DNA from: a virus | IMG/VR virus record: IMGVR_UViG_3300027851_000110 | Span: 1 to 27,381 of that record | DNA: 27,381 bases | Reading direction: 5' to 3' (one strand) | In this document: positions 4,836 to 23,655 of the stretch, piece by piece | Numbering within the stretch: the first letter of the stretch is position 1 | Layout: each line of letters opens with the position of its first letter | Notes under the pieces: model-generated | What the model was told of the DNA's origin: nothing | What the model saw: only the letters and a program-made list of their open reading frames with translations | The model's database searches: none | Position numbers and translations under genes: made by a program

Positions 4836-6896
4836 TTAAAAGCCTCCTTGTTGCATTAGTGCTTGTTCTAGTGATGTGGGTGCTGTTCCGCCTTGACCGT
4901 AGAACATGACATTCTCGCGTGCAGCGTTAAGTCGTTGCCTTAGAGCGTTAAACTTAGCCTGCGCCTCCTCTGGCGAGTCCTGTAACGTCGGAAGTGCCTG
5001 GATAATAACACGTGCATCAGCGTCCGATACTGTTCCAGCTCCAGAACCAGCCAAAGCCTTAGCAATTTGAGTAACACTTGCCTGTGAAAGACTGTTATAT
5101 ACGCTTGCGTTCTTGTCAAAGCCAGCAGAACCAGCAATATTTTGGATAAAGCCACCAACACGTCCTGAGCCGCCACCAGCGCTATTAAATAAATCCTCAA
5201 GCTGGTTAAGGGTGTTCTCTGCGTTGTCTGCGCTTGCAAGGGCGCTTTGGTTAGACTGTGAAAGTTCAGGCTGTTCTATTGCTGATGCGCCAAAGACTTG
5301 TTCTAGCGTCTGGTAATAGTTGATGTACTGGTCAGCATTAGCAGGGTCACGTTGAATATCGTAAAGAAGGTTATCACGACCGTAAGGGCTTGCATTTTGA
5401 GGCTGATTAGTGTACGATTGACCCATGTTAGCAGCCATTGGAACATTCATACTTTGTGCAGTATTAGTCGCCATTGGGTTGCTTATACCTAACGACGACT
5501 GATTAATGTTGCCTAAAGTAGGTTGACCTTCTCCCTGTAGCGCATCAAATCCAGTTGATACTAAATCTGCACCGAACTGTCGTCCAGCGACCCTCGGAAG
5601 GCTCATTGTGTTGACAGTGCCTTGACCTAATTGAGATAGTCTTGAACTTAAGCTTTCAGCTCCTTGGTTAAGTGCGCGTCGCCCAGCTTGACTGTTAATG
5701 GCTTTAGTAGCCGCAAATCCAGCAGCAGCGCCAATAGGGTTAGCAGTTGCACCGCCAGCAACACCTGCGCCAAGCAAACCTGTAAGGTTAGCAGGTAAGC
5801 TACCGCGACCAAGTTCATCCTGTTTAAGGGCTATATCCTGCAGCTGTCGAAGCTTACTCAACTCTTGACCGACGTTTTTAAGAGTTCCCGTTGGGTCAGA
5901 CTTCTGCAGAACTTCTCGTATTGCATCGGCACTACGTTTATTAACGTTATACCTAGCAGGGTTAGCGGCTTGCTGCGTGTAGTTAACTAAACTATCGAAC
6001 TCTCGGCGGATAGCGTTAAGAGTAGTCCCGTCAACAACGGCATTTTGACCGAACTGCTGTAGCACCGTTTGTTTTTGTGATTCAAGGGCGTTAGCCAGGT
6101 TCTTATTGTCTTGCACGGCCGACTTTTTAAGAGTAGCTATTTTAGTGTCAAAAGCCCTTGCAACGTCATCGCGCGATACTTGACCGATATTTTGGGTTAG
6201 TTGTGTAAACTGTTCTTGTAGTGGGTTAATGCCTTTAACGCTAATATCATCCGCTGTAGCGAACCCATAGCGGTTAATTGTTTTTCCTGCGTCCTCACCA
6301 AACTTCTTTTTAAAGTTAGACGTTTGGCTTGGGCTAAGCCTAAACTGTTTAACTGCAAGATCGTCGGTAACTCCTGCGAGCCTTTGTCCACTTTGGCCAA
6401 TAGTTCGTGATAATAGCCCAGGTCGAGTCAAAGCTGTTTCAGCAGCAGTTCGTGCGGCTTGTCCACCTGCGCCTGTAACTAGGGCTTTACCAGCTCCGCC
6501 GATCGCCCGTGCAGCTCGAATAGGAGGCGCAGCAAATGCACCGCCTAGTAAAGCTTCTTGACCTACGTTTTTAAGTACATCCTTCTCGCCAGTAATAACG
6601 TTCTCTGCAAGCTCACCTGCACCAGAACCAGCACTACCGCCAAGGATAGCACCAAGGAGTCCACCAATAGCCGTTCCCACAACAGGGACGACAGAACCAA
6701 TAGCAGCTCCACCAGCAGCACCAGCAAGAGAACCAGCAATACCACCACCCGTAGATAGTTGGTCAGTCCAGAACCCTTTTTTAGGTTGACTAGACGGCCT
6801 AGTTGATTTAAGTGACTGGCTTACCTGTGCAAGTGGGTTATTGACGTTGTCTCCTGGTCGTCCACCAAGCGATATAGGCCCTCTATCCTGCCACAT
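4836..6896 (-). CDS. Large internal virion / DNA ejection-type protein
   Basis: The 686-residue protein has a disordered start, then a striking Gly/Ala-rich hydrophobic segment (about 49-93: GGGIAGSLAGAAGGAAIGS, then VVPVVGTAIGGLLGAILGG) that could insert in a membrane. A long helical, Gln-rich body follows, then a second Ala/Gly-rich stretch (about 368-400) and a Gln/Asn/Ser-rich tail. Podovirus internal core and ejection proteins have this composition and extend into the envelope to carry DNA inside. It starts by TAATG overlap after the 250-residue gene, which is probably a second internal protein. There is no lytic transglycosylase motif that I can see. The role is inferred from composition and position. 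Confidence 0.6.
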   Translation of the reverse strand: MWQDRGPISLGGRPGDNVNNPLAQVSQSLKSTRPSSQPKKGFWTDQLSTGGGIAGSLAGAAGGAAIGSVVPVVGTAIGGLLGAILGGSAGSGAGELAENVITGEKDVLKNVGQEALLGGAFAAPPIRAARAIGGAGKALVTGAGGQAARTAAETALTRPGLLSRTIGQSGQRLAGVTDDLAVKQFRLSPSQTSNFKKKFGEDAGKTINRYGFATADDISVKGINPLQEQFTQLTQNIGQVSRDDVARAFDTKIATLKKSAVQDNKNLANALESQKQTVLQQFGQNAVVDGTTLNAIRREFDSLVNYTQQAANPARYNVNKRSADAIREVLQKSDPTGTLKNVGQELSKLRQLQDIALKQDELGRGSLPANLTGLLGAGVAGGATANPIGAAAGFAATKAINSQAGRRALNQGAESLSSRLSQLGQGTVNTMSLPRVAGRQFGADLVSTGFDALQGEGQPTLGNINQSSLGISNPMATNTAQSMNVPMAANMGQSYTNQPQNASPYGRDNLLYDIQRDPANADQYINYYQTLEQVFGASAIEQPELSQSNQSALASADNAENTLNQLEDLFNSAGGGSGRVGGFIQNIAGSAGFDKNASVYNSLSQASVTQIAKALAGSGAGTVSDADARVIIQALPTLQDSPEEAQAKFNALRQRLNAARENVMFYGQGGTAPTSLEQALMQQGGF

Positions 6897-7648
6897 TATG
6901 CTATTCTCCCAAAGTCAGTTGTCCTCGGTGCTTGATAGCCGCTAAAGACGTAAGGATATCGTTGAGTAAAGTATTGAATAGCTGTTTCAAATTGTCGAGG
7001 TTCTTGAATGGTTCGTAGCTTATTGTAAATGTCTGCGGCGACCTTGTTACCACCCGAACCAATAGTGTAGAGAACATCTCGGATGTCCTGACCTGTTTCG
7101 CTTGCGTACTGACCAGCGGTAATTGGTTGTCCAGACGCGCTAAAGAACTTATAATTTCCGCCCGTACCCTCAACACGAGGTGCGGCTGTTTGACCACCGC
7201 CAAGAATGCTCTGCAAAGAGCCTAGTGTTGGTGATGCAGAAGCGGCTGCGCTTGCTGCGTTTGCCCGTGCAGTTTCAGCCCTGTCTTGTTCAGTCTGGTA
7301 AATGCTCTGCGCTAGCGTATCTCTACGTTCGTTGATGCCTAGGATTGCGTCTTGGAGTCCCATAGCTTTCTGTTGGCCTTGTTGTCGTAAGCCTGCAAGT
7401 GCAGGGGCGTAAGTTGTAGCAGCGTATTTTGCTTGCTCACCAAGAGGTATTCCAGAAAATCCTAGCCCTCTGCGTCTAGCACCAGATACTATGTCGTCGT
7501 AAGCAACGTCTTTTTGGGCATTTAAAGCTTGCTCTTGAGACGCAATCTCTTGAGGTATAAGCTGTTGTTGGCTTTGCAGAGACTTGACCTGAGGGTCAAA
7601 AGTTGAGCTTAGTTCCGAAACAATCTGTTGTAGTGTTCGAGCTGCCAT
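6896..7648 (-). CDS. Internal virion protein, helical
   Basis: The 250-residue protein is helical and Gln/Ala-rich in its first 140 residues (long coiled-coil-like run with QSQQQLIPQEIASQEQ), then a Gly/Ser linker, then a compact end with YIF/aromatic residues (IQYFTQRYPYVFSGYQ). It is cotranscribed with the larger membrane-interacting protein next door. AGGAA lies before the ATG, within a promoter leader that carries the shared ACATGGGCTA element. An internal or tail-ejection protein is the best guess; no enzymatic motif is visible. Confidence 0.55.
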   Translation of the reverse strand: MAARTLQQIVSELSSTFDPQVKSLQSQQQLIPQEIASQEQALNAQKDVAYDDIVSGARRRGLGFSGIPLGEQAKYAATTYAPALAGLRQQGQQKAMGLQDAILGINERRDTLAQSIYQTEQDRAETARANAASAAASASPTLGSLQSILGGGQTAAPRVEGTGGNYKFFSASGQPITAGQYASETGQDIRDVLYTIGSGGNKVAADIYNKLRTIQEPRQFETAIQYFTQRYPYVFSGYQAPRTTDFGRIA

Positions 7649-7659
7649 ATATTCCTACA

Positions 7660-7685
7660 TAGCCCATGTTACTGTAATTATATCA
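7660..7685 (-). promoter_or_regulatory. Promoter with shared ACATGGGCTA leader, copy 1
   Basis: On the minus strand TGATATAAT (-10 at 7677-7682) is followed seven bases later by ACATGGGCTA (7660-7669). The predicted start is about 7670, so the mRNA would begin AACATGGGCTA. TTGCAC lies upstream at 15-base spacing. It drives the internal virion protein genes at 7648 and below. Confidence 0.65.
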
Positions 7686-7712
7686 CGAAAAACGTAAGTG
7701 CAATACGATTTA

Positions 7713-8138
7713 TCAAAAAGGTGCAAGAAAAGTTCTTGCGTATCCAGTAATGGTTCTCGCTGTTGACTCAGTTGTAAGTGGGTCGCTATAAGGGTTTCTA
7801 ATAGTTGCTTGCATTCTAATGCTAGCACTGTTGAGCCTGTATATCAGTACCTCTATGGAGTATAGGGCATTTGGGTCTCCTAAAACAGTACCATTTGTTG
7901 CATAGGAGAATGTTCCGTTTGGGATTGAGTAAACTGTATCGTTTGTCGATATTTTAATGGAATATATCGTGACCGATCCAAGGTTGCCTATAGCTAAGTC
8001 GCTAATGTAAGTAACGGCTGCGGAGGCTGCTAAAACAACAGAACCAGGAATACTAAGAGCAATGCTTTGTACACTTGCATCGTTTTTTAACGAAGCAAAG
8101 TCGCTAGTTATTTGCATTTTTTTAACTGCTTGACCCAT
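7713..8138 (-). CDS. Beta-rich tail/fibre-associated protein
   Basis: The 141-residue protein is almost all predicted beta strand with polar turns (VTIYSIKIS, TVYSIPNGTFSYA, YSIEVLIYRL). It has no charged helix except a short start. It overlaps the preceding gene at TAATG, so it is translated with it. The spacing within the tail cassette, between nozzle-associated genes and internal proteins, suggests a small decoration or tail-appendage protein. No family is recognised. Confidence 0.52.
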   Translation of the reverse strand: MGQAVKKMQITSDFASLKNDASVQSIALSIPGSVVLAASAAVTYISDLAIGNLGSVTIYSIKISTNDTVYSIPNGTFSYATNGTVLGDPNALYSIEVLIYRLNSASIRMQATIRNPYSDPLTTESTARTITGYARTFLAPF

Positions 8139-8839
8139 TACGTAGTACCGTCCTCTAAGTATATTCTATACTCTATTGCGTCGTAGTTATCGGCGTTGTT
8201 TCTTGTTATTTGTGTTGTCGACACTGATATCCCTGCTTCAGCAAAAGAAAATGGCGGTATGTATTGAGTTAAAACGTTAGGGCTATAAGAACCAGATAAA
8301 CTAATATAGCCCCATCTTAAAACTGTTGGTATGTAACCAAGGTTATGGTCAAACGACTGGTTAAGTCCATCCAAGTTTCCGACAAAAGCCAGCTTCATAT
8401 AGTTAAAATCAGTTGACAGTATAAGATTATCCGATTGATTACTGGTGTTTTCAACAACTGCGTCAATACTAGCAGTACTTGGTATATAGCATATGACTCG
8501 GTAGTAAACAGTTTGCGTCGAGCCAGAGTTATTATACCTAGTAATCGTTACGTTTGTTGAATCTGCTTTAATATCGTAGTACTGACCACTTGGAAAAGTA
8601 ACAAAACTTCCAACGCTTTGAGCGTAGGTTGCATCAAAATTATTATTAACCGTTGAAAAGCTAGAATCGTTACTCCAAAAAAGCAACGGCAATGGAGCAA
8701 AAGGTAGACCATGCGGAATAGTTATTGGTGTAAGGTCGTTGGTCGTTCCGTCTGGCACAGATTGGCTTCCTTCACGTAAGAATACTATTTGGTCGTTTGG
8801 GTAGTCAGAGTTAAGCAAAAACTTCTTGGGGTCGGTCAT
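8138..8839 (-). CDS. Tail/fibre protein with two tandem related domains
   Basis: The 233-residue protein appears to contain one fold twice. Residues about 5-120 (FLLNSDYPNDQIVFL ... IPHGLPFAPLPLLFW ... TRYNNS) and about 137-230 (LILSTDFNYMKLAFVG ... FDHNLGYIPTVLRWGY ... ITRNNAD) share a repeated order: a start with S-D-Y or T-D-F, a mid His/Asn-Gly/Pro turn followed by aromatic strand, and a late TITR/QITR strand ending in YR. This repeat order is typical of phage receptor-binding or tail-spike modules. It overlaps both neighbours by one codon or less. Function is inferred. Confidence 0.58.
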   Translation of the reverse strand: MTDPKKFLLNSDYPNDQIVFLREGSQSVPDGTTNDLTPITIPHGLPFAPLPLLFWSNDSSFSTVNNNFDATYAQSVGSFVTFPSGQYYDIKADSTNVTITRYNNSGSTQTVYYRVICYIPSTASIDAVVENTSNQSDNLILSTDFNYMKLAFVGNLDGLNQSFDHNLGYIPTVLRWGYISLSGSYSPNVLTQYIPPFSFAEAGISVSTTQITRNNADNYDAIEYRIYLEDGTT

Positions 8840-9126
8840 TATGCACTCAATTCGTCAATTACGTCTACCCCGTCTATAGATATCCATGAACCAGGGCGAC
8901 CGTCTACGGGGTGTTGCCCGAACAGCGCTCGTCTTAACCCAGTATCGTCACTAATAAGAAGCCCATAGCGCCCTTCCATGTATTTCCCCGTGATTACGGC
9001 GTTTACGTTATTAGCTGACTTAAATACTTTTACTTGCTGTTCTTTGTTAAGGGTGCGAATCATGTCGTTCACTTGACCATAGTTTTGGTTTGTAGAGTTG
9101 CTTGTATTCAGAGGACGAAGGCTCAT
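8839..9126 (-). CDS. Small tail protein (95 aa), unknown
   Basis: The protein has an N-terminal helix (NQNYGQVNDMIRTLNKEQQ) and a compact C-terminal beta part with an unusual run, GKYMEGRYGLLISDDTGLRRALFGQHPVDGRPG. It overlaps the nozzle gene by ATGA and the next gene by one base. Small proteins of this kind, with a coiled start and a beta end, often trimerise as adaptors that join fibres to the tail. That role is an inference from composition and neighbours. Confidence 0.5.
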   Translation of the reverse strand: MSLRPLNTSNSTNQNYGQVNDMIRTLNKEQQVKVFKSANNVNAVITGKYMEGRYGLLISDDTGLRRALFGQHPVDGRPGSWISIDGVDVIDELSA

Positions 9127-11108
9127 CGTAGTCTCCTGGTTTGCTGAACTAAAGTATGTCCAAGGAATAGATTTGGTTGCCTTGTGGCGTTATGCGTGTA
9201 TCTAATGGCAGTACGGCGGTATTCGCCAGGAATATAGAGATATGACTGCGTTTCGGCTGATGCACCATACGTTGCGCCGCCGCCATAAATCACGCCTGAG
9301 CCGTATGTTAGTCCTGAGCCCTGTACATTGGGGTTATCGTAAGTCGTCCAGTTATCTCTTAAATCGTAAGCATACTGACAGGTAATTGTATAGTTACCAC
9401 TTTGTCCACCAAAGCGCGGTTGCCAATCTCTTGTTTCCTTGAGAACTGCAGGTGATAACCCAATAATATAATGTGTCTTAAGCTCAAAGTCTATGTCGCC
9501 GCCCAAGTTCGTATAGTCGTTTGACGGGTTCTCCTGCCAGTAGACTTGACCTATCTTAGAACTTGCAACAAGTAAAGCGTCGTCGTCTCTGTAGGCACTA
9601 AACGCTCTTTGTACAAAACTATTTGTGTCGTAGCTTTCGGTTGTTCCTCCGTCATCTCCGTAGTTAAGAGAGAACACGTAACAGGCGCTATTAGACGACT
9701 CCCCTGCGGGCGTGGACCACACATACAGTCGCCCGTTATTGACTACCAAACAGGCATCGTCTTTGTTCGGCATATCCACAATCTCTTGGTAAATGTCAGC
9801 ACTCATTATTTGCGCTTCTGAACCGTTTGAACGATATACCCCGTCACTAGACAAAAAGTATATGAAGTTGTTATCAGCAGTTACCGTCTCTTGCGAGTAT
9901 GTGCCTTTTTGGTCTGGCGCTTCGTCCAGTGAAAAGGTGGCGTTATCATCACCAGCTAAAATGAACTTATTTTTAAGTGTTTGTATAATCAAGTATCCGT
10001 TTAGAGACTTTAAGGCTACAACGGGATCGCCCGTTTTTGGAGATGGTGCGTAGATAAAGTCAGTTGAGGTAAAAGTCTCGTAGTCTGCAAAATTTGAGTA
10101 AGCAACCTTGTTTGGGTCAGACGACTCTACTAGGAACAGAAGCCCCTTGTGTATACAAAGAGTTGTGTAGTTTGTTGAGTTGACTTGCGATTCAGTTGTG
10201 AAGTCCCACTTACGAAGCCCATCGTATCCGTTAACGTAGTAAACTATGTCGTTTACTGTTACGAACCTGTAGTGTGTGGCAGAGGAGCTTAGCCCAGATT
10301 TAATGGTAGTAAGTGCGCCTGTTACATCGTCAACAGAGTAAAGTACTGTTCCTTGTACAAATAGGGTCTTTTTTGTGCCGTCGCTCTTGTATGCGCGGTG
10401 CAAGCCCTTAATACCACCGCTTGTTGCGTAGTGTTGCCTAAAGTTCATAGCATAAGACGTAGACGACCAAGTTACACCAGAGTCAGTAGAGGCAAGCGCC
10501 GTTGTTTCAGCGGTAGTGCTAGACCAACTATACGTGTTGCTTCCAATAGCTTGCACGTACACAACTATCCAGTAGTTACTGGTGGCGGTTAGTTCGGGTG
10601 CTTCTGCAAACCTTGCTGTTAGGTATTGATAGCTGCTTGTTATGTCTGAGGCTTTGATTGATGACCTAGCTAGTCTTACGCCTGGGGCGCTTGATACGTT
10701 GCTCCATACCTCGACAATGACCGTTCCAGTTGCCCCTGTGGTGTTTTTTAGGTTCACTTCTATCTTTTCAAGTCGCTGTGTAACTGCAGAGGTAAAAACT
10801 TGAGCAAATCTTATAGTAGTGCTAAAGTCTTTATCTGCCGCGCCCGTTGTTGACGTTATTGCGTCGTCCTGAGTTGACCCTGCCGCTGCTGAGTGAAAAT
10901 CTATTCCCTTTCGGGTTTCGTATTCACCAAGAGTAAGTATTCTTGCGTTCTTAGCAAGCCGCCACTGGTTAACACCCCCACTTTTTAGGTTAAACTTGTC
11001 GTTTGATAAAAAAGAGTTATACCCAAGGCTATAGTCGTTCAGCTCATACGTCTGAGTAGGGCTTGTAATCCTTGGAACACTAACTGATGCGCGTTTAGCC
11101 CAGGGCAT
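9123..11108 (-). CDS. Tail nozzle / stabilization protein, propeller-like
   Basis: The 661-residue protein resembles P22 gp10/T7 gp12-type nozzle proteins that form the distal short tail. The N-terminus (about 1-75) sets up a conserved start (YELNDYSLGYNSFLSNDKF). Residues about 90-230 form an extra beta-sandwich (FAQVFTSAVTQRLEKIEVNL to SNYWIVVYVQA). From about 235 on, repeated blades follow, each with a phrase such as GLHRAYKSDGTKKTLFVQG or NDIVYYVNGYDGLRKW, ending near residue 550. The tail end contains Gly-rich loops (SGLTYGSGVIYGGGATYG). It lies just after the adaptor, which fits a podovirus tail. Confidence 0.68.
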   Translation of the reverse strand: MPWAKRASVSVPRITSPTQTYELNDYSLGYNSFLSNDKFNLKSGGVNQWRLAKNARILTLGEYETRKGIDFHSAAAGSTQDDAITSTTGAADKDFSTTIRFAQVFTSAVTQRLEKIEVNLKNTTGATGTVIVEVWSNVSSAPGVRLARSSIKASDITSSYQYLTARFAEAPELTATSNYWIVVYVQAIGSNTYSWSSTTAETTALASTDSGVTWSSTSYAMNFRQHYATSGGIKGLHRAYKSDGTKKTLFVQGTVLYSVDDVTGALTTIKSGLSSSATHYRFVTVNDIVYYVNGYDGLRKWDFTTESQVNSTNYTTLCIHKGLLFLVESSDPNKVAYSNFADYETFTSTDFIYAPSPKTGDPVVALKSLNGYLIIQTLKNKFILAGDDNATFSLDEAPDQKGTYSQETVTADNNFIYFLSSDGVYRSNGSEAQIMSADIYQEIVDMPNKDDACLVVNNGRLYVWSTPAGESSNSACYVFSLNYGDDGGTTESYDTNSFVQRAFSAYRDDDALLVASSKIGQVYWQENPSNDYTNLGGDIDFELKTHYIIGLSPAVLKETRDWQPRFGGQSGNYTITCQYAYDLRDNWTTYDNPNVQGSGLTYGSGVIYGGGATYGASAETQSYLYIPGEYRRTAIRYTHNATRQPNLFLGHTLVQQTRRLR

Positions 11109-11119
11109 ATGTGGCCTCC

Positions 11120-11803
11120 TTAAAACAGTCTCTTGCCAACAGCATACTTGTTAATTCTCATTCGGGTTGGCATACCAACCTGTGCTTGGCTATACTTAAC
11201 AACAAGTTTTTGGAGGATTTCATCGTACTTGTTTTGCAGTATTGCTGCTTGGTCATAATTATCTTTCACTTGAAGCACCCGATATGCAGCGCCCATGACA
11301 AGTAACTCCTCAAACTCGCTTGGTAGGTCTGGGACATCACCGTCTACTGTTAATAGAGCAGGCTTTTTGTAGTATCGGAGCGTTACGGAGTAGGTGTTAG
11401 CTGGAGACGGAAATACGTTAATAGTTTCAGCAAAGTAATACCACTTGCTAGGAATGTTAGGTGGCCATGTTGTTGTGTTACTTACATTTGGGTAAAGAGC
11501 GTCAATCTGGCTCACATCCATATACTGGATAACCTGCTGTGTACCCGCGTTGTTAAGCACTAAGTCAAGTGCCTGTACGTAGTTAGATGGTAGACCGCTG
11601 CCGTTTGTGATGTCAGCTACGCCAGTTGCTAGAGTGTAGTTTTGAGAGGCTTGAGTAAAAGGTAAACGATATTCGTTAAAGACATCGTTTTGTGCATCGT
11701 TCAAGTAACTAATAATTTCAGTGCTTGAATAGCCTGTGTCCCTTACTCTTTGCTGTACTCGGGTTACTAAATCGCCTGTAGTGTAAGCCACAAGATGCTC
11801 CAT
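11120..11803 (-). CDS. Head-tail adaptor / connector (P22 gp4 or T7 gp11-like role)
   Basis: The 227-residue protein begins with a helical segment (DLVTRVQQRVRDTGYSSTEI, ISYLNDAQNDVFNEYRLPF) typical of podovirus adaptors. A beta region follows (YYFAETINVFPSPANTYSVT, LRYYKKPALLTVDGDVPDLP), then a helix-rich end (EFEELLVMGAAYRVLQVKDN). In the family this protein joins portal to nozzle. It is followed in the same operon by the nozzle. The start lies about 11 bases from the predicted transcription start and has no ribosome site, so translation may be nearly leaderless. Confidence 0.66.
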   Translation of the reverse strand: MEHLVAYTTGDLVTRVQQRVRDTGYSSTEIISYLNDAQNDVFNEYRLPFTQASQNYTLATGVADITNGSGLPSNYVQALDLVLNNAGTQQVIQYMDVSQIDALYPNVSNTTTWPPNIPSKWYYFAETINVFPSPANTYSVTLRYYKKPALLTVDGDVPDLPSEFEELLVMGAAYRVLQVKDNYDQAAILQNKYDEILQKLVVKYSQAQVGMPTRMRINKYAVGKRLF

Positions 11804-11829
11804 AGCCCATGTATGATTGTATTATAGCA
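11803..11829 (-). promoter_or_regulatory. Promoter with shared ACATGGGCTA leader, copy 2
   Basis: On the minus strand TGCTATAAT (-10 at 11821-11826) is followed eight bases later by ACATGGGCTA (11803-11812), whose last base is the A of the start codon. The predicted mRNA start is about 11812-11814. No -35 box is clear. It drives the adaptor and nozzle genes. Confidence 0.65.
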
Positions 11830-11834
11830 TAAAC

Positions 11835-12256
11835 TTAGTCACCGAGAACAAGTAGATTACACTTTACCCCATTTGATGCCGACTGAAACTGTAAAAGTCC
11901 TAAGAGAACGGCCGTTGACTGTGTGATTGTCGCCGTAATACTCTTTTTGTCTCCTGATACGGTTGGGGCAGATACTTGGTAAGCCGCAGCATTACCGTAC
12001 GGTGTAATGGTTATTGTATCAGCGTAAATATTTGTGTAAACAGCGTTACCCGAAGATAGACCGTTATCTGTGATGTAAAACGTTACTGTACCACTAGAAG
12101 TATTCGCAGTGTAGCATTATATACTGCTAAATCTGCGTGGTATGCAGCACTTTCAGATGGAATTTGGTCGATTGTGTCCGTCATAGGTATACCGTTGTTG
12201 ACTTGATACCACTTTACTGACTGACTTTCACTTGGTCCTGAAACTTCTAAAGTTAT
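11835..12256 (-). pseudogene. Broken or mis-assembled tail protein gene (ATA start, one-base frameshift)
   Basis: A coherent 140-residue beta-rich protein can be read only by joining two frames. Frame one gives TLEVSGPSESQSVKWYQVNN through AAYHADLAVYNAT, up to about 12112. After skipping a missing base (12105-12112) the next frame continues ANTSSGTVTFYITDNG to the end, LLQFQSASNGVKCNLLVLGD then TAA at 11835. Without the shift the first frame stops soon after. GGAGG stands four bases before ATA at 12256 where ATG would be expected, so the start is also altered. No slippery heptamer is visible at the junction. Either the gene is decaying, or two sequencing errors fall in it. Confidence 0.6.
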
Positions 12257-12265
12257 ACTTCCTCC

Positions 12266-12784
12266 TTACAGTGGTACTACCGTTATACGTCGCTCGAAAA
12301 ACTGAGCCGTTCCTGATACAGTTTTAAACTTCATAGTAAATGTGTTGCTGCCCGCAGTAAGACCCGTGAATAAGTGTGTCGTACTCTGAGTGCCTATGAA
12401 GGTTGCTCCATCGTTACGTATTGAGTACGTGTCGTCAGCCGCAACTGTGCTCGCTCCTGATACAGCAACGCTTGCCCTTTTTGCTGCAGCGACATTGTAT
12501 GTACCACAAGACCAGGTCACAAGGGCAAGTCCGTTTGCCCCAATAGTTGCTGTCGCTGACGTGACAGTAGCAAGGTCTGTATACGACGTGCTGGTAGTAC
12601 CTTGGTCTGTAGCTGTGTAAGCAGTAACTGGCGAAAGAGCGAGTTTAGAGGCTGTAATAATACCGTTATTTACATTTGTAACCGTAGGAGATGCAGCTGT
12701 GCCTCCTAAATGACCTGTAAGCTGAACCTTACCTTTAGTGGTCGAAGTAGCGTCTGGTGTCGGTTGGTTTTGCGATAACGCCAT
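12266..12784 (-). CDS. Fibre-like virion protein (172 aa)
   Basis: The protein begins with phage fibre phrases (TTKGKVQLTGHLGGTAASPT, then VTNVNNGIITASKLALS) and ends with a beta domain (IGTQSTTHLFTGLTAGSNTF, TMKFKTVSGTAQFFERRITV). Similar N-terminal phrases, with repeated Gly, Thr and Ser, join head or tail fibres to the particle. It shares the style of the product at 4245-4835 (IASGAAIAGSKL), so the phage carries at least two related small fibres. It overlaps the 700-residue structural gene by one base. Confidence 0.6.
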   Translation of the reverse strand: MALSQNQPTPDATSTTKGKVQLTGHLGGTAASPTVTNVNNGIITASKLALSPVTAYTATDQGTTSTSYTDLATVTSATATIGANGLALVTWSCGTYNVAAAKRASVAVSGASTVAADDTYSIRNDGATFIGTQSTTHLFTGLTAGSNTFTMKFKTVSGTAQFFERRITVVPL

Positions 12785-14886
12785 TATACTGTCTCCGTTA
12801 CACGCATGTTACCCGTTGCGCTATTCCAGATGGCGTCTATACGCCCTGCGTAGTCTTCACCGTTAAGTGAGAAGCTACCTAGAGCTGCCAAAAAGATAGT
12901 GAACGAGCTTGTAGAGGCTGTAGTACCAAACTTAACGTAACAGTCTGACGATGAGTCATTATAGAACACCGCGAGCCGTCGAGCTGCGTTTGCTGCTAGA
13001 ACAGTCACAGAGGTAGCAGAAGCTGCCACGTTTGAAGTAGTAGCTGTGTTTGCTGGTACTGGTCGGTTGAATAGCGCTCCGTTTGCATCTACGGAGAGTT
13101 GAGAGTAGTCACCGTTTGCTGAAGTTGGTGCTGTCGCTGCATTGTCGTTTCGGACGCCCCATACTGCAACACCAGTGTCACCAGACGCGGCTACGGCATC
13201 CTCTGCCTTACCAAGAGATGTTGCACCTGTACCACCAGTACCTAAGTTAGCGGTTACTGTACCCGTAACTGTCGTGGTTGGAGCTGAAGCTACGCTCACT
13301 ATTTGTTGGCTAAACTGTGCGCTAGGCTCGATAAGGACGTTTGCCGTACCAGAAGTGTACGCGGTTGCTCGTACGCGGAACTGTTGTACACCAAACAGCG
13401 GTGCTACGTTCCAAACGTTAGTTGAGTTAGTAGTTAATACACCTGTCGCAGTAACAATAGTAGGAGTTGCTGTAGTCGCCTGTTGTGCTGGAATCGTGAA
13501 CCAAATAGTACCGTCCAGCGTGCCTTCGAAGGTGACGTTTACGCCTGCGTACGTGCCCGAGATTTGTACCGTTGCAGCACCAACACCCGACAAGTCCGTA
13601 GCAACTACTGTTGAGGTTGAGGTCGTAATTGTCCCAGCGGTAGCTCCCAAGTCAGTTGCGAGTTTTGTCTTAACAGTCGTCTGATTGGATGCAATGACTA
13701 CAGGTGTACTTGCCCCCATTAGTTGTTGACCAACTGGAAGTGAAAGTACATCAACATCACCAATATTGTTTGTACCCGCAGGAAGTGACCCCGTAAGACT
13801 TACAGAGCCGTCAACGGTGATAGAGTTACCGCCATCCTGGATGTTAACAGCCGAGGCCCCTGAAGCGTTGTTAATCGTTACATCACCAATATCTACGCCA
13901 GAGTTAGCCTGTCCAATAACTTTAAGGTTGCGGTTTACGTCCATTGCAAGAACACCTACGTCGCCAGAGTTGACAGTGTCAGAGGTAGCAAAGCCCATGA
14001 TCGGCGTACCTGAGTCAGTACCAGCGGTAAACGCAGAGTCGTCTACTGAAGATGTGCCGCCCCCACCTCCGCCACCACCAGTAATATCGTCACCATCAGA
14101 CTGGAGAGCTACTAAACCGTATGTGCCAGGGTTAGCAGTTGACTCAACAACGTTTGCACCTACTGCACTGTTAACAAAGTCGAGAATTGCACCGTTGCCA
14201 CCTCCACCGCCACCACCGCCTGTGGTTGGTATATTGCCATTTGAGTCTAACTGAACCTGAACAGCTTTCCCGTTTATATCTCGAAAAGGCAAGATGTAGT
14301 TGGCTGTCGGAAATACTAGTCCTGTGACTGCTCGTTCAACACTACGTACAGCGTTCTCAAGCTCACTCATATCAGACTTAGGTATTTCCACCTTACTCTC
14401 TTTGATAGCCTTTTCAAGACTCTTAATAAGCGTTTCAAGTGGTTTCAAGTTAACTTCTGGAGCGTTAATGGTAGGTGATAGGTCTTTGCTTTGAACACTT
14501 TTAGCAATTTCTTCAAGGTAAGGGATAAGAGATTCTGATTTATCAGTCTCTGCCACCTGTGCTGGTAGGTCACGCATTGCCTGTAACAGCTTGCTAAATG
14601 TATCGGGGATTACTTCTAGGTCGACAGTTTTAAAGTTATCAGACGATCGCCTGATAGACTCGATAAGTTCAGCTAAGTTACTTGCTACTTCAGCTAGTTT
14701 AGGGTCTTTCCCAATAAGTGTAGCCATGAGGATGTCGTGCATAGCAGAGGAGAGAGAGTCTTTCGTCTCCCCTCCACTACTTTTAACGGCATCAATTATA
14801 GATTGGGTTCGGTCGCTTTCAGCTTTTGCAGCGGCGTCAGCGGCTCGCTTGTTCTGAATACGCGAAATTGGGTCGTCTTTATCCAT
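12784..14886 (-). CDS. Large structural/fibre protein with poly-Gly linkers
   Basis: The 700-residue protein has three parts. Residues 1-190 are helical and charged, with a probable coiled coil. Then comes a beta segment and two poly-Gly runs (about 223-230 and 270-277) that look like flexible hinges. The rest is Ser/Thr/Ala-rich beta repeat (phrases such as LPVGQQLMGASTPVVIAS and VWGVRNDNAATAPTSANGDY). The C-terminal 90 residues (NDSSSDCYVKFGTTASTSSF) look like a fibre tip domain. The start has AAGGGT five bases upstream and lies 20 bases after a promoter leader. It is probably a long tail fibre or head fibre. Ser/Thr abundance makes it a possible target for the neighbouring glycosyltransferases, which is speculation. 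Confidence 0.6.
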   Translation of the reverse strand: MDKDDPISRIQNKRAADAAAKAESDRTQSIIDAVKSSGGETKDSLSSAMHDILMATLIGKDPKLAEVASNLAELIESIRRSSDNFKTVDLEVIPDTFSKLLQAMRDLPAQVAETDKSESLIPYLEEIAKSVQSKDLSPTINAPEVNLKPLETLIKSLEKAIKESKVEIPKSDMSELENAVRSVERAVTGLVFPTANYILPFRDINGKAVQVQLDSNGNIPTTGGGGGGGGNGAILDFVNSAVGANVVESTANPGTYGLVALQSDGDDITGGGGGGGGTSSVDDSAFTAGTDSGTPIMGFATSDTVNSGDVGVLAMDVNRNLKVIGQANSGVDIGDVTINNASGASAVNIQDGGNSITVDGSVSLTGSLPAGTNNIGDVDVLSLPVGQQLMGASTPVVIASNQTTVKTKLATDLGATAGTITTSTSTVVATDLSGVGAATVQISGTYAGVNVTFEGTLDGTIWFTIPAQQATTATPTIVTATGVLTTNSTNVWNVAPLFGVQQFRVRATAYTSGTANVLIEPSAQFSQQIVSVASAPTTTVTGTVTANLGTGGTGATSLGKAEDAVAASGDTGVAVWGVRNDNAATAPTSANGDYSQLSVDANGALFNRPVPANTATTSNVAASATSVTVLAANAARRLAVFYNDSSSDCYVKFGTTASTSSFTIFLAALGSFSLNGEDYAGRIDAIWNSATGNMRVTETV

Positions 14887-14895
14887 AGTTACCCT

Positions 14896-14921
14896 TAGCC
14901 CATGTTAGCTTGATTATAGCA
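14896..14921 (-). promoter_or_regulatory. Promoter with shared ACATGGGCTA leader, copy 3
   Basis: On the minus strand TGCTATAAT (-10 at 14913-14918) is followed seven bases later by ACATGGGCTA (14896-14905). The -10 overlaps the last codons and stop of the glycosyltransferase upstream. The predicted start is about 14906. It drives the fibre genes at 14886 and below. Confidence 0.65.
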
Positions 14922-19673: not shown

Positions 19674-20555
19674 CTAAGACTTAACAACGTAACCAAAGCC
19701 GTTTCGCAGTTGAGTGTGTCCGTAAAGAACATCAACTGTGACAAGCCAGCCAAGGTACTCTTGCTTGTACTGTGCTTGGGTTCGTGGTTGTAGCTGAAGC
19801 GCAACAGCCCATGCTTCTTTGTGGAACATGAGGTGGTTGTATTCGTCAGTAGCCGTGTCAAGTGATACAAGGTTCTGTGACATGAATACGTCAACGCCGT
19901 AAATACGACCAATCTTACCGTTCTTGATGCTGTTGTCATCACCGCCAACACCAAGCGCGTCGTAACGAACATACTTGTCAATAGCGAGTAGTTCGGCTTC
20001 ACCCTTAGGATGTACAACGAGTGAACGATCTGAACGTGGGGCTTTAGCTTCACTTAGGTATCGGTTGACAGTAAGAATTAGGATGTCATTCAATGCTGTT
20101 CCGTATGCACCGTAAGCGTCGCCGTCGGCTTTCCAGGTAGTTGTCATGCTAGTAGCAATGCTTGAGTCAATCTTTTCAGCAATAGCGTACGCAGCAGCTT
20201 GTGTGTAGTCGCTTCGTAGTTCGTATGCTGCCTGAACCTTTACCAAGTCCTCGATAATAAACGAGCTTTCGTAGTGTTGGTTCAAGGTGATTGTTGTCTT
20301 TGTTTCAGTGTTGTAGTTCAAGGTAACTACTGTATTTTGTGCTTTTAGGTTAGCTGTGATAGCTGAGACGTTTGGAATCTCCAAAGTCTGTCCACCTGAT
20401 TGTACGTCTGCGTCGTAGTGCTTGATGAGTGGCAAGAGAACGAGGTTGCTCTTGACAAACATGAGGGCTTCTTTTGACCAGACATTAGGTCGGAATACGT
20501 TGGCTGCGGTTGCACCAATGTTTACGTTTCCTGAGCCGTATGCTCCTGATACCAT
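19674..20555 (-). CDS. Major capsid protein (HK97-fold)
   Basis: The 293-residue product is a coat protein of the HK97 fold. Visible family features are an N-terminal arm, E-loop-like polar stretch (TETKTTITLNQHYESSFIIE), a long helix (AAYELRSDYTQAAAYAIAEK), the Gly-rich loop NGKIGRIYGVDVFMSQNL and a C-terminal ending KQEYLGWLVTVDVLYGHTQL. The start at 20555 is preferred because GGAG lies nine bases upstream; a TTG five codons further upstream is the alternative. It follows the scaffold gene and is followed by a strong terminator, as expected for the most expressed gene. Confidence 0.82.
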   Translation of the reverse strand: MVSGAYGSGNVNIGATAANVFRPNVWSKEALMFVKSNLVLLPLIKHYDADVQSGGQTLEIPNVSAITANLKAQNTVVTLNYNTETKTTITLNQHYESSFIIEDLVKVQAAYELRSDYTQAAAYAIAEKIDSSIATSMTTTWKADGDAYGAYGTALNDILILTVNRYLSEAKAPRSDRSLVVHPKGEAELLAIDKYVRYDALGVGGDDNSIKNGKIGRIYGVDVFMSQNLVSLDTATDEYNHLMFHKEAWAVALQLQPRTQAQYKQEYLGWLVTVDVLYGHTQLRNGFGYVVKS

Positions 20556-20579
20556 GTTGTTATTCTCCAAGTTAAGTTA

Positions 20580-21377
20580 TTAGCCAGCCATAGCTTTGTT
20601 GATTGCATCGTAGTTCTGCACGAACCATTCCTGGCTGTTCTGAGCTACTAAACGGTCAACATTCTGTGGGGTAATCGTGTTACTCGTCATAGACGAATTA
20701 ACCGCATTCCCCGTTGGTACGGCGGCTTGTTGTTTTTGGGCCAGGGATTTAAGTGCTTCTTGCTTCCCCTGCGACTTGAGAATATCAGCGTTATTACTAA
20801 CTGCCATAGCGTAACTAGCTTTGAGGATTGCTTCTGGTGAACCGTAAAGCCCTGCTGTTTGTGCAATCTCCGCCATCTCTGACTCGTACTGCCTTGCACC
20901 AGGATTAGCGTCCCAAAACTCACGAATAGAGTCTTTAACCTCCATACGCTGAAGTCGTTTAAGAACTTCTGGGTTTTGTCCAGTTGCTTGCGCCACTTGG
21001 GTAGCTGAATCATCGGACATTTGCCCCATGGTTCGCTCAAGTTCGCTCGCCCTCTTAGTTTTGTCATGCATCAGCTTTTCGGCGTTCATAGCCATCTTAG
21101 CTGCTTTTCTAGCGTTATCGCTATCGAGTTCTAAGCCCTTTGCTTGGGCGAACTTTGCGAGTTGTTCATCTTCACTAGACACTTCTGCCCGTGATTCTGG
21201 CTCGGCTGTCGCTTCTGCGGCTTGTTCCTCAGGTTCGCTGGTTGTTGTAACCGCCTCAGCTGATTCCGTCTCCTCTGGTTCTGCAATCGCCATGCCCTGG
21301 TCATCTATAGCGATGCCGTTGACACTTTGTACTGCGCCAGATTCAACAGGAGCTTCGGTTGTGGCTTCTCCGTCCAT
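20580..21377 (-). CDS. Scaffolding protein
   Basis: The 265-residue product has an acidic, Glu/Ala/Thr-rich disordered N-terminus (about 1-85, TESAEAVTTTSEPEEQAAEA), then a Lys/Arg helix region (KAAKMAMNAEKLMHDKTKRA, coiled-coil) and a C-terminal helical end. That is the layout of phage scaffold proteins, which guide coat assembly and then leave. It sits directly before the coat gene. The ATG at 21377 with AAAGG seven bases upstream is preferred to the upstream GTG. Its leader carries long inverted repeats (21397-21461) that could set its expression. Confidence 0.72.
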   Translation of the reverse strand: MDGEATTEAPVESGAVQSVNGIAIDDQGMAIAEPEETESAEAVTTTSEPEEQAAEATAEPESRAEVSSEDEQLAKFAQAKGLELDSDNARKAAKMAMNAEKLMHDKTKRASELERTMGQMSDDSATQVAQATGQNPEVLKRLQRMEVKDSIREFWDANPGARQYESEMAEIAQTAGLYGSPEAILKASYAMAVSNNADILKSQGKQEALKSLAQKQQAAVPTGNAVNSSMTSNTITPQNVDRLVAQNSQEWFVQNYDAINKAMAG

Positions 21378-21396
21378 GTTGTACCTTTCTCTTATC

Positions 21397-21461
21397 ACAC
21401 GCCCAGATTGTGGTTAGATTTAACATGGGCGTGTTAAATAATGTTCTAACCACAATCTGGG
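21397..21461 (-). promoter_or_regulatory. Interleaved inverted repeats in the scaffold leader
   Basis: On the minus strand CCCAGATTGTGGTTAGA (21445-21461) and TCTAACCACAATCTGGG (21402-21418) are perfect 17-bp complements. Between them ACACGCCCA (21426-21434) is complementary to TGGGCGTGT (21397-21405), which overlaps the end of the second 17-mer. The order is B, A, B', A', then the ribosome site of the scaffold gene (start 21377). The RNA could form a stem-loop with loop-tail pairing or two exclusive hairpins, changing access to the ribosome site or making a processing site between portal and scaffold mRNA. No T-run follows, so it is not a usual terminator. Confidence 0.75.
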
Positions 21462-21468
21462 AGTACGA

Positions 21469-21696
21469 CTACAGAGGCTTACCTTTCTTTATTTCAGTTG
21501 TAACAGACAGGATGTGTTCTTTAACTTGTCGGACTCCCTTGGCTTGCTGTGTGAAGTCGCGTGAAGCATCGGCGTTATTCTCAGCCCTTTCGTGCATACT
21601 CTCTATAAGACGGTCTAGTTCTGCAACAAAAGCCCTGCCCTCCTCGGATTTAATAAAGAAGTTCTGATAGGGTACTTTCAGTTTTAGGCCTTTCAT
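21469..21696 (-). CDS. Small helical protein after the portal
   Basis: The 75-residue product has helices with many charged residues (EGRAFVAELDRLIESMHERA, then QQAKGVRQVKEHILSVTTEI). It begins within the portal stop (ATGA), with no separate strong ribosome site, so it is coupled to portal translation. It lies before the long inverted repeats of the scaffold leader. A head-assembly chaperone is a guess from position. Confidence 0.55.
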   Translation of the reverse strand: MKGLKLKVPYQNFFIKSEEGRAFVAELDRLIESMHERAENNADASRDFTQQAKGVRQVKEHILSVTTEIKKGKPL

Positions 21697-23531
21697 AACT
21701 GCGCCCTTTGTAGTTCAGCTACTTTTTTAGCCATCTCTATTTCGTGCTTCTCTTGAGCGTTATCTAAAGCCTGTTGCTCACGTGCTGCTTTTAGCTCGGC
21801 CACAGGGTCAACTGGCGGCATATCCATTGGCATCTCTGGCGGCATTCCAGGCATCATCTCAGGAGGCATCATTGCCATAGGGTCAGTCGGCATAGCCATT
21901 GGGTCACCATCCATTCCAGGCATTCCTTCTATTTCAGGAGCAGGGGATGTTAGTTGCTCAACTTCGTCAGGATCGAGGTCAAATGAACGCTGCAAGACAA
22001 GCTTCTTTAGCTCTAACTGGTTCACGTCTGGGTCGCCAAGGAACGCACCAAGAAGTTCTTTAGCATCGTTGGCTTGCTTTTGTTTTTCGTTATTAATAGA
22101 TGTCTCAAGCTGTACCCGTGGTTCGTAGTCACCTTTAAAGTCAGAAGGGTCAAACTCCTCCCACCTTGCACCGTCTTTTCCGACAATCCTTACCATCATT
22201 GGTTCTGTAACGTAAAGCTGAACCATTTTTAAGACAATCTTAGCAACCTGGTAAAAGTAACCATTTTCAATTTGTGTCACCTTTAGGCTAAAGCGTTGAC
22301 CAGCGCCAGCTATCTGGGCGTTAATCTCTGTAGCCGTAGACTTAGCACCTTCAGCAGATGTACCTCGGATAACCTCGCTCGATGCGGTCGTCTCTCGGAT
22401 TTCGTTCTTGATGTTAGTTCGCTCTAGGAAAGCATCAGGGGGGATTGGGCGTTGTGCAATAGGGTTCAATGCACCTGCCTCTACTGGGTAAACAGCACCA
22501 GGTAAGTTCTCAATCTCACTCAAGAGATGTGCGTACTTAGGGTCAAGCGTATACATTTGGTTGAGGGTGTAGGTGATAGAGTCTATATTCTGGTTAGTGA
22601 TGTCGTTAAGAAGCTCCTGTTGGTCTGCGATAATGTCAATCTCACCCTTAGCGTAGAATAATGACTCGTCTACATAATCTCGCGCATCAGCAAACGGCAA
22701 CATTCCGTCTGGGTATTCCTGACCGTTTGATTCAGCTTTGAGCTTAAAGTAGTTAACAGAATCTTCGATAACGACTGACCTATTAGCAACGGATATAGTC
22801 TTATCTTTTGTCCAGTATTCGATGACTTCTATTTGTTTGTCTTGGGGTTCAGTAAGAGTAGAACCATACCACATATCTTTCTCTTGCTTGTCAGTGTTCT
22901 CCCCTTTTCCACCACCGCCATTGGCTATTTTATCCAGGTTGGTGTATTTTTTCTTCATTGGGTAGTTGCCGTCTGCGTCTGGTTCAGCATCTAAGTCTAC
23001 GATTTCAAATGATTCAAGTTCTTGTTTAGTTGTCAGATACCTACGTCCGCAGTAACTAGCAGTCTCAAGGCTTGAGGCGTTAGGGTCGATAAAGAAGTCA
23101 CGGATAGGCACGTTTATAAGGCAAGGATGATCGCCAGCCCAATAAAAGTAGTCAACGGCTGTTCCTAGTTTGAACATATTGCGACCAGTATTAATGACTT
23201 TTAAGCTCCACTGGTCTTTCTCCCAGTAGTAGTCAAGTAGCGAATTAAGAATGTCAGTCTTTTGGTCTTGCTTATCTTGTGGCGCAAGGTAGCCGAACTT
23301 AGGTTTAGAACCAAAAAGCCCAGACGTTAGAGTTTCAACGGTAGAAAAGGCCATAGGGACAAATGTATCTGTGATACCTACGTATCCACGTTTAACACGA
23401 TTCCCATTGTAAAGGTATTGGTTATTTTGCCAGCGCTGATGCCATGCACCTTGCACGTATTCCCAAGAGGCGTTGAAGTCTCCCACAACCTGATTAAGAC
23501 TGTCCTGCTTGTTTGCGCGTTTTGTGGGCAT
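21693..23531 (-). CDS. Portal protein (P22/T7-like podovirus type)
   Basis: The 612-residue protein is a phage portal, the dodecameric ring at the packaging vertex. It has an N-terminal helix region (SWEYVQGAWHQRWQNNQYLY), stem and wing strands with a motif-like VIRGTSAEGAKSTATEINAQ at about 389-408, and a long crown helix (QRFSLKVTQIENGYFYQVAK onward). Residues about 536-580 are a Met/Pro-rich low-complexity stretch, then a charged helical end (EQQALDNAQEKHEIEMAKKV). It follows terminase and precedes the scaffold, the classic order. The start at 23531 has TAGGAT upstream. The Met/Pro-rich tail is unusual for the family. Confidence 0.8.
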   Translation of the reverse strand: MPTKRANKQDSLNQVVGDFNASWEYVQGAWHQRWQNNQYLYNGNRVKRGYVGITDTFVPMAFSTVETLTSGLFGSKPKFGYLAPQDKQDQKTDILNSLLDYYWEKDQWSLKVINTGRNMFKLGTAVDYFYWAGDHPCLINVPIRDFFIDPNASSLETASYCGRRYLTTKQELESFEIVDLDAEPDADGNYPMKKKYTNLDKIANGGGGKGENTDKQEKDMWYGSTLTEPQDKQIEVIEYWTKDKTISVANRSVVIEDSVNYFKLKAESNGQEYPDGMLPFADARDYVDESLFYAKGEIDIIADQQELLNDITNQNIDSITYTLNQMYTLDPKYAHLLSEIENLPGAVYPVEAGALNPIAQRPIPPDAFLERTNIKNEIRETTASSEVIRGTSAEGAKSTATEINAQIAGAGQRFSLKVTQIENGYFYQVAKIVLKMVQLYVTEPMMVRIVGKDGARWEEFDPSDFKGDYEPRVQLETSINNEKQKQANDAKELLGAFLGDPDVNQLELKKLVLQRSFDLDPDEVEQLTSPAPEIEGMPGMDGDPMAMPTDPMAMMPPEMMPGMPPEMPMDMPPVDPVAELKAAREQQALDNAQEKHEIEMAKKVAELQRAQL

Positions 23532-23546
23532 TAAATATCCTATACC

Positions 23547-23655
23547 CGTGTCCGATATAGCTAGTATAGCATTAACGGTTTATAAGTAAATAGTAACTTT
23601 ATTTAGCACAGGCTCGGACACGAAGCAATTTATTACTTAGTACCTGTGCTAAATA
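23547..23655 (-). promoter_or_regulatory. Interleaved inverted repeats in the portal leader
   Basis: On the minus strand TATTTAGCACAGG (23643-23655) and CCTGTGCTAAATA (23600-23612) are perfect 13-bp complements. In the loop CGTGTCCGA (23614-23622) is complementary to TCGGACACG (23547-23555), which lies just before the portal ribosome site. The order is B, A, B', A', ribosome site, as in the scaffold leader, though the sequences are unrelated. It could form a pseudoknot. An internal promoter (23563-23571) would give a transcript that keeps only A'. Confidence 0.72.
23563..23571 (-). promoter_or_regulatory. Extended -10 promoter of the portal gene
   Basis: On the minus strand TGCTATACT (-10 at 23563-23568) lies between B' and A' of the inverted-repeat set. 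The predicted transcript starts near 23556, just ahead of TCGGACACG. No good -35. Confidence 0.45.

Follow-up and report, generated by a model that had tools for sequence, protein, structure and literature searches.

Introduction

Late genes of tailed phages are, in the usual account, controlled by proteins, namely new polymerases, sigma factors, antiterminators and activators. Promoters of the T7 type take in the first transcribed bases, often GGG, while phage put RNAs and the CI RNA of satellite phage P4, a small structured phage RNA with antisense loop segments, act on transcription. Short repeated elements are also known, such as the start-associated sequences (SAS) of Cluster K mycobacteriophages, which contain the ribosome site just before start codons, and the stoperators of Cluster A mycobacteriophages, with their lineage-specific coevolution and orientation. 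Stoperators are described as asymmetric short repeated sites that are bound by the repressor of the same phage (PMC9283540, PMC6550527). The c4 RNA differs between phages P1 and P7 (heteroimmunity), and the lambda OOP and aQ RNAs and P22 sar RNA are phage-encoded and regulate phage mRNAs via pairing (PMC12197685).

The window analysed here, 27,381 nucleotides, is the entire IMG/VR record IMGVR_UViG_3300027851_000110, which is probably an incomplete genome. For this locus, the comparative evidence points to an RNA that would read a short tag common to the late mRNAs.

Results

Late promoters of the window and of its relatives

The exact decamer ACATGGGCTA occurs three times in the whole window, always on the minus strand (7660-7669, 11803-11812 and 14896-14905) and always at a predicted late mRNA start, at spacings of 7, 8 and 7 bases from a -10 that has TG one base upstream (TGnTATAAT). 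No further exact copy was found anywhere in the window, and only about 0.05 copies are expected by chance (base count, 27 kb, both strands). An earlier note on this DNA had reported both the three exact decamers at these spacings and the lack of any other exact copy, and the window scan bears it out on both points. Sequences with up to two mismatches are present in ordinary numbers (28 found, 21.9 expected), so the signal is carried by the exact copies only. Of the 8-mer core there is one more copy, the fourth, which reads on the other strand (21423-21430) and falls within the structured RNA described below. Most core 8-mers are located at extended -10 promoters, the remainder being the RNA copy or about the number expected by chance.

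All of the features that follow are on the minus strand. Late promoter 1 (14896..14921; TGC-TATAAT, -10 at 14913-14918, predicted +1 A at 14906) precedes a gene of 700 aa with no family match (12784..14886), and 9 nt (14898-14906) of its element AACATGGGCTA (14896-14906) are antisense to the guide segment of the RNA, with a duplex energy of -15.9 kcal/mol. Late promoter 2 (11803..11829; TGC-TATAAT, -10 at 11821-11826, predicted +1 A at 11814) carries ATACATGGGCTA, with 8 nt (11805-11812) antisense to the guide (duplex -14.8), and is followed by an adaptor/tail structural gene (11120..11803; phrog_399, phrog_10775), whose true start probably lies further in than 11803, the longest-ORF start. 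Late promoter 3 (7660..7685; TGA-TATAAT, -10 at 7677-7682, predicted +1 A at 7670) again carries AACATGGGCTA, with 9 nt (7662-7670) antisense to the guide (duplex -16.3), and precedes a gene of 250 aa (6896..7648), next to which comes a lysin-like virion protein (4836-6896). The promoter of the portal operon (23541..23571; TGC-TATACT, +1 at about 23556), upstream of an SU10-type portal protein (21693..23531; PF23899), has a diverged element, ATCGGACACGGGTATA, shifted by 4-5 nt. This leader pairs weakly to moderately with the RNA (-10.3), whereas the portal leaders of relatives pair strongly.

The pattern TATAATN{5,10}ACATGGGCTA, a search that the earlier note had proposed, gives 3 matches in the window and 0 when read backwards. 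Across IMG/VR the exact pattern stands at chance level (99 stretches against about 165 expected, a rough count), never with two matches per contig; in relatives the element has diverged. Annotated relatives at the DNA level were not found, and the annotated matches to the phage are remote and confined to the portal (e.g. MW202692, cyanophages). The element versions of the relatives differ from that of the window, and the signal emerges only when relatives are compared gene by gene.

Throughout this large clade of uncultivated podoviruses, the late promoters have an element, spanning +1 to about +12, which is common within one phage and different between phages (AACATGGGC, AATACGGGC, AACACGGGC, AACAAGGCGGG, AACTGAGTG and others). 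In the relatives, 56/56 late promoters have A at +1, and 98% have a pyrimidine at -1. Late operons of one phage have the transcribed element in common (z = 8.0), while the sequence upstream of the -10 (z = -0.2) and the six bases between -10 and tag show no sharing. The mRNA-start element proposed earlier thus stands and extends to the late (virion) operons of the relatives. A start codon in the tag was considered and rejected, as other lineages lack the AUG found in the window's version.

These transcribed bases might be a part of the promoter read by RNA polymerase itself, either as a host preference or by a T7-like single-subunit phage polymerase, for which T7-type promoters offer a precedent. 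We regard this as highly improbable: no rigid motif runs through the start, the spacing from TGnTATAAT is variable with six unconserved bases between, and the antisense loop of the RNA would be left unexplained. A single-subunit polymerase was not found in 22 related records, many of them partial, in a search without a positive control. Among 295 Saccharimonadia genomes, a host assignment that is itself weak, the element search gave 17 matches against 6 for the control, and apart from leaderless ATGGGC genes and one tRNA the host genes do not have the element; a host promoter feature was accordingly rejected for Saccharimonadia.

A structured RNA upstream of the scaffold-like gene

A small gene 3' of the portal gene is followed, right behind its stop codon, by a structured RNA domain of about 80 nt (21390..21470, minus strand), consisting of P0, P1, P2 and a pseudoknot. 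Immediately downstream lies the scaffold-like gene (fam5; 20580..21377, minus strand, ATG at 21377), whose putative role is taken from its place before the gene for the major capsid protein (19674..20570, minus strand; PF19821). Covariation and folding define, on the minus strand, the 5' arm (CCCAGATTGTGGTTAGA, 21445..21461) and 3' arm (TCTAACCACAATCTGGG, 21402..21418) of P1 and the P2 hairpin TTTAACA-CGCCCA-TGTTAAA (21419..21438). The guide GCCCATGTT (RNA form GCCCAUGUU; 21422..21430), made up of loop and P2 3' arm, is the exact antisense of the late-start sequence AACATGGGC. The pseudoknot strand GGGCGT (21399..21404) pairs with the loop ACGCCC (21427-21432) and has the 5' flank as an alternative partner, in a P0 extension.

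The window RNA has a fold z of -8.15, and scores 70.8 bits with a covariance model of which it is itself one of the 17 sequences. The alignment contains 101 compensatory cells against 30 when shuffled (0/500), with two-sided changes in 19/29 pairs; 93% of cells are paired, compared with 74% in shuffled and at most 45% in slid versions. The pseudoknot covaries by lineage (own score 255 vs 181, sd 12.7, 0/20000). In Rfam no family came near the gathering score, the best matches being eukaryotic miRNA hairpins far below threshold, and the predicted fold is that of a previously undescribed RNA, a structured class without an Rfam entry. G021 and G022 have a weak version by the covariance model (24 bits, E 0.004), with which the fam4 leader AATCGGGCT pairs; in the 295 Saccharimonadia genomes, searched without a positive control, the RNA was not found.

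No promoter or terminator of the RNA's own was seen in the window, and the RNA does not resemble an intrinsic terminator, being followed there by GUGUGAUAAGAGAAAGG with no U run after the hairpin. Two distant members, G005 and L198, have a site resembling an extended -10 immediately 5' of the RNA. Pseudoknot-driven read-through of the stop codon was rejected, as the frame beyond the upstream gene meets a stop no more than about 17 codons on (G001, by eye).

The position of the RNA would also suit a switch in cis, in which the RNA is the leader of the scaffold and capsid genes, and 5' ends of tail-operon mRNAs, or short abortive transcripts, open the pseudoknot and so tune head-protein synthesis to late transcription. 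In all examined relatives that have it, the RNA immediately precedes the scaffold-like gene, except in G005, where a gene is inserted between. Its tail strand covaries with two partners, loop and 5' flank, which points to a bistable RNA, and the P0 5' arm shares bases with the preceding gene's stop codon, which could couple translation to folding. In the window, however, the Shine-Dalgarno sequence and start of the scaffold-like gene are outside the structure, the hairpin has no terminator after it, and an mRNA of few copies would be an unusual ligand; overall we consider such a switch unlikely.

Late mRNA starts match the loop of the RNA

In each phage, the RNA of that phage has an apical loop and loop-side stem complementary to the late element. 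Late starts form better duplexes with the RNA of their own phage than with swapped RNAs, both for the P2 hairpin (z = -6.8, 0/20000) and for the whole RNA (z = -6.1, 0/20000), and the preference recurs in a controlled rerun (z = -6.7, 0/20000) and in held-out contigs (n = 14; z = -3.4, 4/20000). Windows near the promoter show no own-phage preference (+17 to +32, z = -0.4; upstream, z = -0.3 and 0.5), nor do the starts of other promoters (z = 0.7). The reverse complement of the element gives z = -1.0, and the reversed element, a control for composition, is weakly positive (z = -2.8).

The match extends to versions of the element that look unrelated: AACTGAGTG with CGCTCAGTT in G006, AAGGCGGG with CCTGCCTT in G018, CGGGCGAG with CTCGCCCG in L243 and, among distant members, GGGTAGGTG with CACCTACCC in L274, GGACGGG with CCCGTCC in L262, and AACTAGGACGGGCT with the own RNA in L281. 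Pairing is weak or absent for the portal leader of G005 and L198, for fam4 and fam7 of G020, and for fam2/fam8 of G021, which are leaderless. In late leaders the pairing region stops short of the Shine-Dalgarno sequence. From the leaders of contigs G009, G012 and L066 (AACAUGGGCU, AUACGGGCU and AUCACGGGC), we predict RNAs with the loop AGCCCGUGUU. Within the RNA, P2 and the pseudoknot compete against pairing in trans.

A rival explanation is that promoter cassettes were duplicated in each genome and that the match to the loop arose by chance: short GGGC/GCCC cores are widespread, many chance sites elsewhere in each genome score equally well and the reversed element is weakly positive. The swap permutations and held-out tests contradict coincidence or common descent, and neither the six bases between -10 and tag nor the upstream sequence is common between promoters, leaving this explanation with a negligible probability.

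A further alternative is a DNA-level element, with a phage protein, activator or roadblock repressor, binding the duplex from +1 to +12 and the copy in the RNA gene being a reversed site. That the element goes with extended -10 promoters from a single temporal class and differs by lineage is as expected for a coevolving factor, but the reversed copy sits in the loop of a covarying, pseudoknotted RNA, and the element of the portal promoter has moved 4-5 bp with respect to the -10. Departures from exact complementarity also lean to changes that keep G-U pairs (37 vs 17, in sequences that are not independent), and no regulator family is common to these phages among the early genes of three genomes. 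We judge this alternative very unlikely. A protein regulator common to all members was rejected, the early genes being too divergent, with nothing shared by all; among 72 early proteins, scans against Pfam and PHROG turned up NinG, Rad52/Erf, YqaJ, HNH, one WhiB, one CopG-type RHH and one integrase.

As the element tracks the antisense loop lineage by lineage, it is most likely an RNA tag and not a site for RNA polymerase. Two of the causes offered in the earlier note, an RNA-polymerase modifier and a binding site in the initially transcribed region, taken as a DNA site, are therefore not supported. Its third, an mRNA element at the 5' end, comes nearest: the position holds, and the match to an RNA is added. 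The note took relatives that keep the promoters and lack the element as evidence against its idea. Such relatives occur, and coevolution explains them, because the different element of each one matches its own RNA.

Discussion

The RNA structure, the pseudoknot, the complementarity, the lineage covariation and the link to late promoters are strongly supported by sequence comparison. We propose, with a probability of about 0.6, that the decamer is a 5'-terminal tag of late mRNAs, read by a pseudoknotted phage RNA that controls the late operons together after transcription. The RNA would lie in the late transcript, after the portal-proximal genes and before those for scaffold and capsid. Its apical loop and loop-side stem, GCCCAUGUU, would base-pair with the tag, AACAUGGGC (+1 to +9). 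The 3' tail, GGGCGU, could occupy the loop as a pseudoknot or pair with the 5' flank and free it, and with these two alternative partners the loop would be closed, or open to late mRNAs. By pairing in trans, the RNA might seal or mark late mRNAs at their 5' ends, a few bases ahead of the Shine-Dalgarno sequence, and so set stability and/or translation across the late operons together. We infer that this pairing takes place inside infected cells and acts post-transcriptionally, with a stabilising or activating effect likelier than a repressing one, given the abundant late products.

The same pairing could act on transcription, if the RNA catches late transcripts that are just emerging from RNA polymerase and causes antitermination, pausing or attenuation, much as put RNAs and P4 CI RNA do. 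The tag, at the very 5' end, is the part that emerges first, and the targets are long late operons, yet no terminator or pause site has been demonstrated close downstream of the tags, and we hold this to be quite unlikely. Under the post-transcriptional reading, the messages from which the virion is built are probably recognised by one RNA, which coordinates them. More tentatively, and with some doubt, the RNA in the head-gene mRNA might be a viral hub of a new class that recognises the 5'-terminal tag on every late mRNA and gathers or licenses these messages, loop and tags changing together as a private address in each lineage of this large uncultivated family.

The analysis provides a structured RNA class with a covariance model, dozens of examples and a predicted pairing partner, and by matching tag to loop, late operons and fragments that belong to one uncultivated phage could be linked.

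Compared with known systems, the tags resemble stoperators in being short asymmetric repeats within a genome that are read, or here would be read, by a factor of their own phage. A stoperator is double-stranded DNA, bound at positions across the genome by a monomeric repressor protein, whereas here late transcript starts match an RNA loop, and the sites are not spread independently of promoters. Like SAS, the tag is a short conserved sequence repeated at gene starts; unlike SAS, it opens the transcript, ahead of the ribosome site, and is matched by an antisense RNA. The proposed regulation of phage mRNAs by pairing is shared with OOP, aQ and sar, each transcribed across from, or next to, just one target gene, while the targets here are dispersed and would be reached through a short tag. 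A further likeness is to the c4 RNA of P1/P7, also a small structured phage RNA in which antisense loop segments pair with phage transcripts (PMC12197685). As in c4 and CI RNAs, a loop segment is complementary to transcripts of the same genome; in contrast to them, the window RNA lies within the late transcript itself, has a pseudoknot that competes for the same loop and has no Rfam match. Antirepressor repression and immunity do not appear among its targets, which by position are virion-gene operons. c4 and P4 CI RNA act on a single leader or gene, in lysogeny or immunity; in this phage, several late virion operons begin with 5'-terminal sequence that matches one and the same loop.

Late promoters share a lineage-specific transcript start

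Within the window, which takes up an entire IMG/VR virus record (27,381 bases), the decamer ACATGGGCTA has three exact copies and no more, at 7660-7669, 11803-11812 and 14896-14905, always on the minus strand and 7-8 bases 3′ of a TGnTATAAT, as the earlier note had described, while the promoter-plus-element pattern read backward gave no match in the window. Among the window's genes are tail genes and those for a T7-type terminase, an SU10-type portal and a capsid protein; the window showed no DNA-level similarity to annotated phages, and its relatives among them are remote, via the portal only. Glycosyltransferase-like genes lie amid the virion genes (15693-16972 and 14914-15606), and, as judged by eye from sequence, HNH/AP2-type homing-endonuclease-like genes (family 17) are present at 26035-26661 and, at varying places, in relatives.

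Many related uncultivated podovirus contigs (G- and L-numbers) were gathered from IMG/VR by protein searches. In nearly all of these, TGnTATAAT precedes the same late genes and is followed by six free bases, an A at +1 and then a short stretch that is conserved. The proposed transcript-start element extends beyond the window as a feature of late promoters, but its letters vary by lineage: AACATGGGC in the window, AATACGGGC in G001-G003, AACACGGGC in G007, AACAAGGCGGG in G011/G018, AACATAGGCTGG in G008 and AACTGAGTG in G006. All 56 late promoters have A at +1, and 98% of them have a pyrimidine (C or T) at −1. The placement of +1 is supported by several leaderless-looking non-late genes, with TATAAT, six bases and an ATG at the predicted +1 (window 25504, minus strand; G003 32206; G008 4586; G011 34623; G018 23561). 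The separate late operons of one phage carry a common start stretch, with a within-genome similarity (permutation test) of z = 8.0 for the transcribed stretch vs −0.2 upstream of the −10. Element-like sequence is found at 46/56 late promoters, compared with 13/47 other extended −10 promoters, several of these 13 also sitting before virion genes. In the distant group L263-L272 the late genes are leaderless.

A structured RNA carries the antisense of the element

When each genome was searched with the core of its own version, one non-promoter copy recurred, on the opposite strand, just 5′ of a scaffold-like gene (21423-21430 in the window, opposite in strand to the promoter copies). Read on the transcript strand, this copy runs antisense to the element and lies within a strong hairpin, and the region folds with z = −8.15. 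In an alignment of 17 relatives, 93% of cells are paired (74% shuffled, ≤45% slid), two-sided changes occur at 19/29 pairs, and there are 101 compensatory cells vs 30 shuffled (0/500). The domain (21390-21470, minus strand) is built from stems P0 (closing) and P1 (long), an inner hairpin P2 and a 3′ tail; in 17/17 sequences this tail forms a 6-8 bp pseudoknot with the P2 loop. This match is lineage-specific (255 vs 181, sd 12.7, 0/20000). The tail also covaries with the 5′ flank (columns 8-84 and 9-83), and since its pairs covary with both partners, two mutually exclusive states are conserved.

An Rfam search with the RNA revealed nothing alike. A covariance model generally finds a single copy of the domain in each contig, invariably at this position; the exceptions are weaker matches to the same hairpin on the mirror strand and a faint additional hit. 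From this position the RNA may act in cis on the scaffold gene. No hairpin of this kind was seen in L263 and L266, the two members of the leaderless group that were read. In the distant relative G005 (L185; region 7433-9549), a virion-type gene cassette lies between RNA and scaffold gene, the RNA tail is repeated ahead of that gene, and an extended −10 stands just 5′ of the RNA.

Late mRNA starts are predicted to pair preferentially with their own phage's RNA

For each late mRNA start (+1 to +16), duplexes were computed in silico with the RNA from its own phage and with those from other phages. With the P2 hairpin, duplex energies are −15.4 kcal/mol for own partners, compared with −11.7 kcal/mol after swapping (z −6.8, 0/20000; z −5.8 with one genome per lineage). 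The whole RNA, with which the site is not chosen, gives z −6.1 (0/20000), and its best duplexes nearly all involve the loop and the 3′ arm of P2. These permutation counts are not strict probabilities, because the sequences are kin, while the partner swaps hold composition constant. Controls from the same promoters (+17 to +32, z −0.4; upstream, z −0.3 and 0.5), other promoters' starts (z 0.7) and the reverse complement (z −1.0) lie near zero, the reversed element (z −2.8) being the sole control away from it. In fourteen contigs fetched later, for which the RNA region was assigned automatically, z is −3.4 (4/20000). Departures from full complementarity favour G-U-keeping changes (37 vs 17, not independent).

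Pairing is poor for the G005/L198 portal leader, two G020 leaders and the leaderless G021 genes. In the portal leaders of L107-L109 and G001-G004 the tag is displaced by 4-5 nt and accompanied by additional bases (UYGG), which are also able to pair with the P1 3′ arm. In G011, late-strand sequence at 22991 (minus strand) contains another 16-base stretch antisense to the RNA loop, CACAAGGCAGGGTGTT.

The tag-loop pattern recurs with different letters in very distant relatives, with portal identities of 37-39%: leaders GGGTAGGTG and loop CACCTACCC in L274, leader GGACGGG and loop CCCGTCC in L262, and AACTAGGACGGGCT matched by CGGCCCGTCACCTGGTT in L281. The four distant cases were chosen by eye and are illustrations outside the pairing test.

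Host and lifestyle

A host habit as the source of the element was not borne out: it is rare in 295 Saccharimonadia genomes, where occurrences are mostly explained by leaderless ATGGGC-starting genes and one tRNA. Host assignment is uncertain, as two Saccharimonadia MAGs contain distant relatives, whereas WhiB-like genes, typical of actinobacterial phages, are present in two relatives (G011 5130-5402, G018 29678-29950), and Actinobacteria may belong to the host range. The G007 contig (L217) carries a tyrosine integrase gene (63-548), and part of the group may be temperate.

Proposed mechanism and comparison with known systems

The shared decamer is most likely an mRNA 5′ tag. A phage RNA would present a loop antisense to it, and the RNA's own tail, mimicking part of the tag, could shut this loop. 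On each late mRNA, pairing would occupy roughly +1 to +10 without covering the Shine-Dalgarno sequence; such a 5′-terminal duplex might also shield the mRNA from 5′-end-dependent decay. The simplest function would be to control the stability or translation of late mRNAs in a coordinated way, although the RNA may act on nascent transcripts. All evidence is computed from DNA, and the RNA as a separate molecule is putative.

The observation partly recalls stoperators, SAS and T7-type promoters, but each of these departs from it in features that were tested. Nearest in working principle are the phage antisense RNAs c4, sar, OOP and aQ (review PMC12197685), which have no sequence kinship to the RNA described here; c4, moreover, has an immunity-type, single-target role that this RNA does not share.
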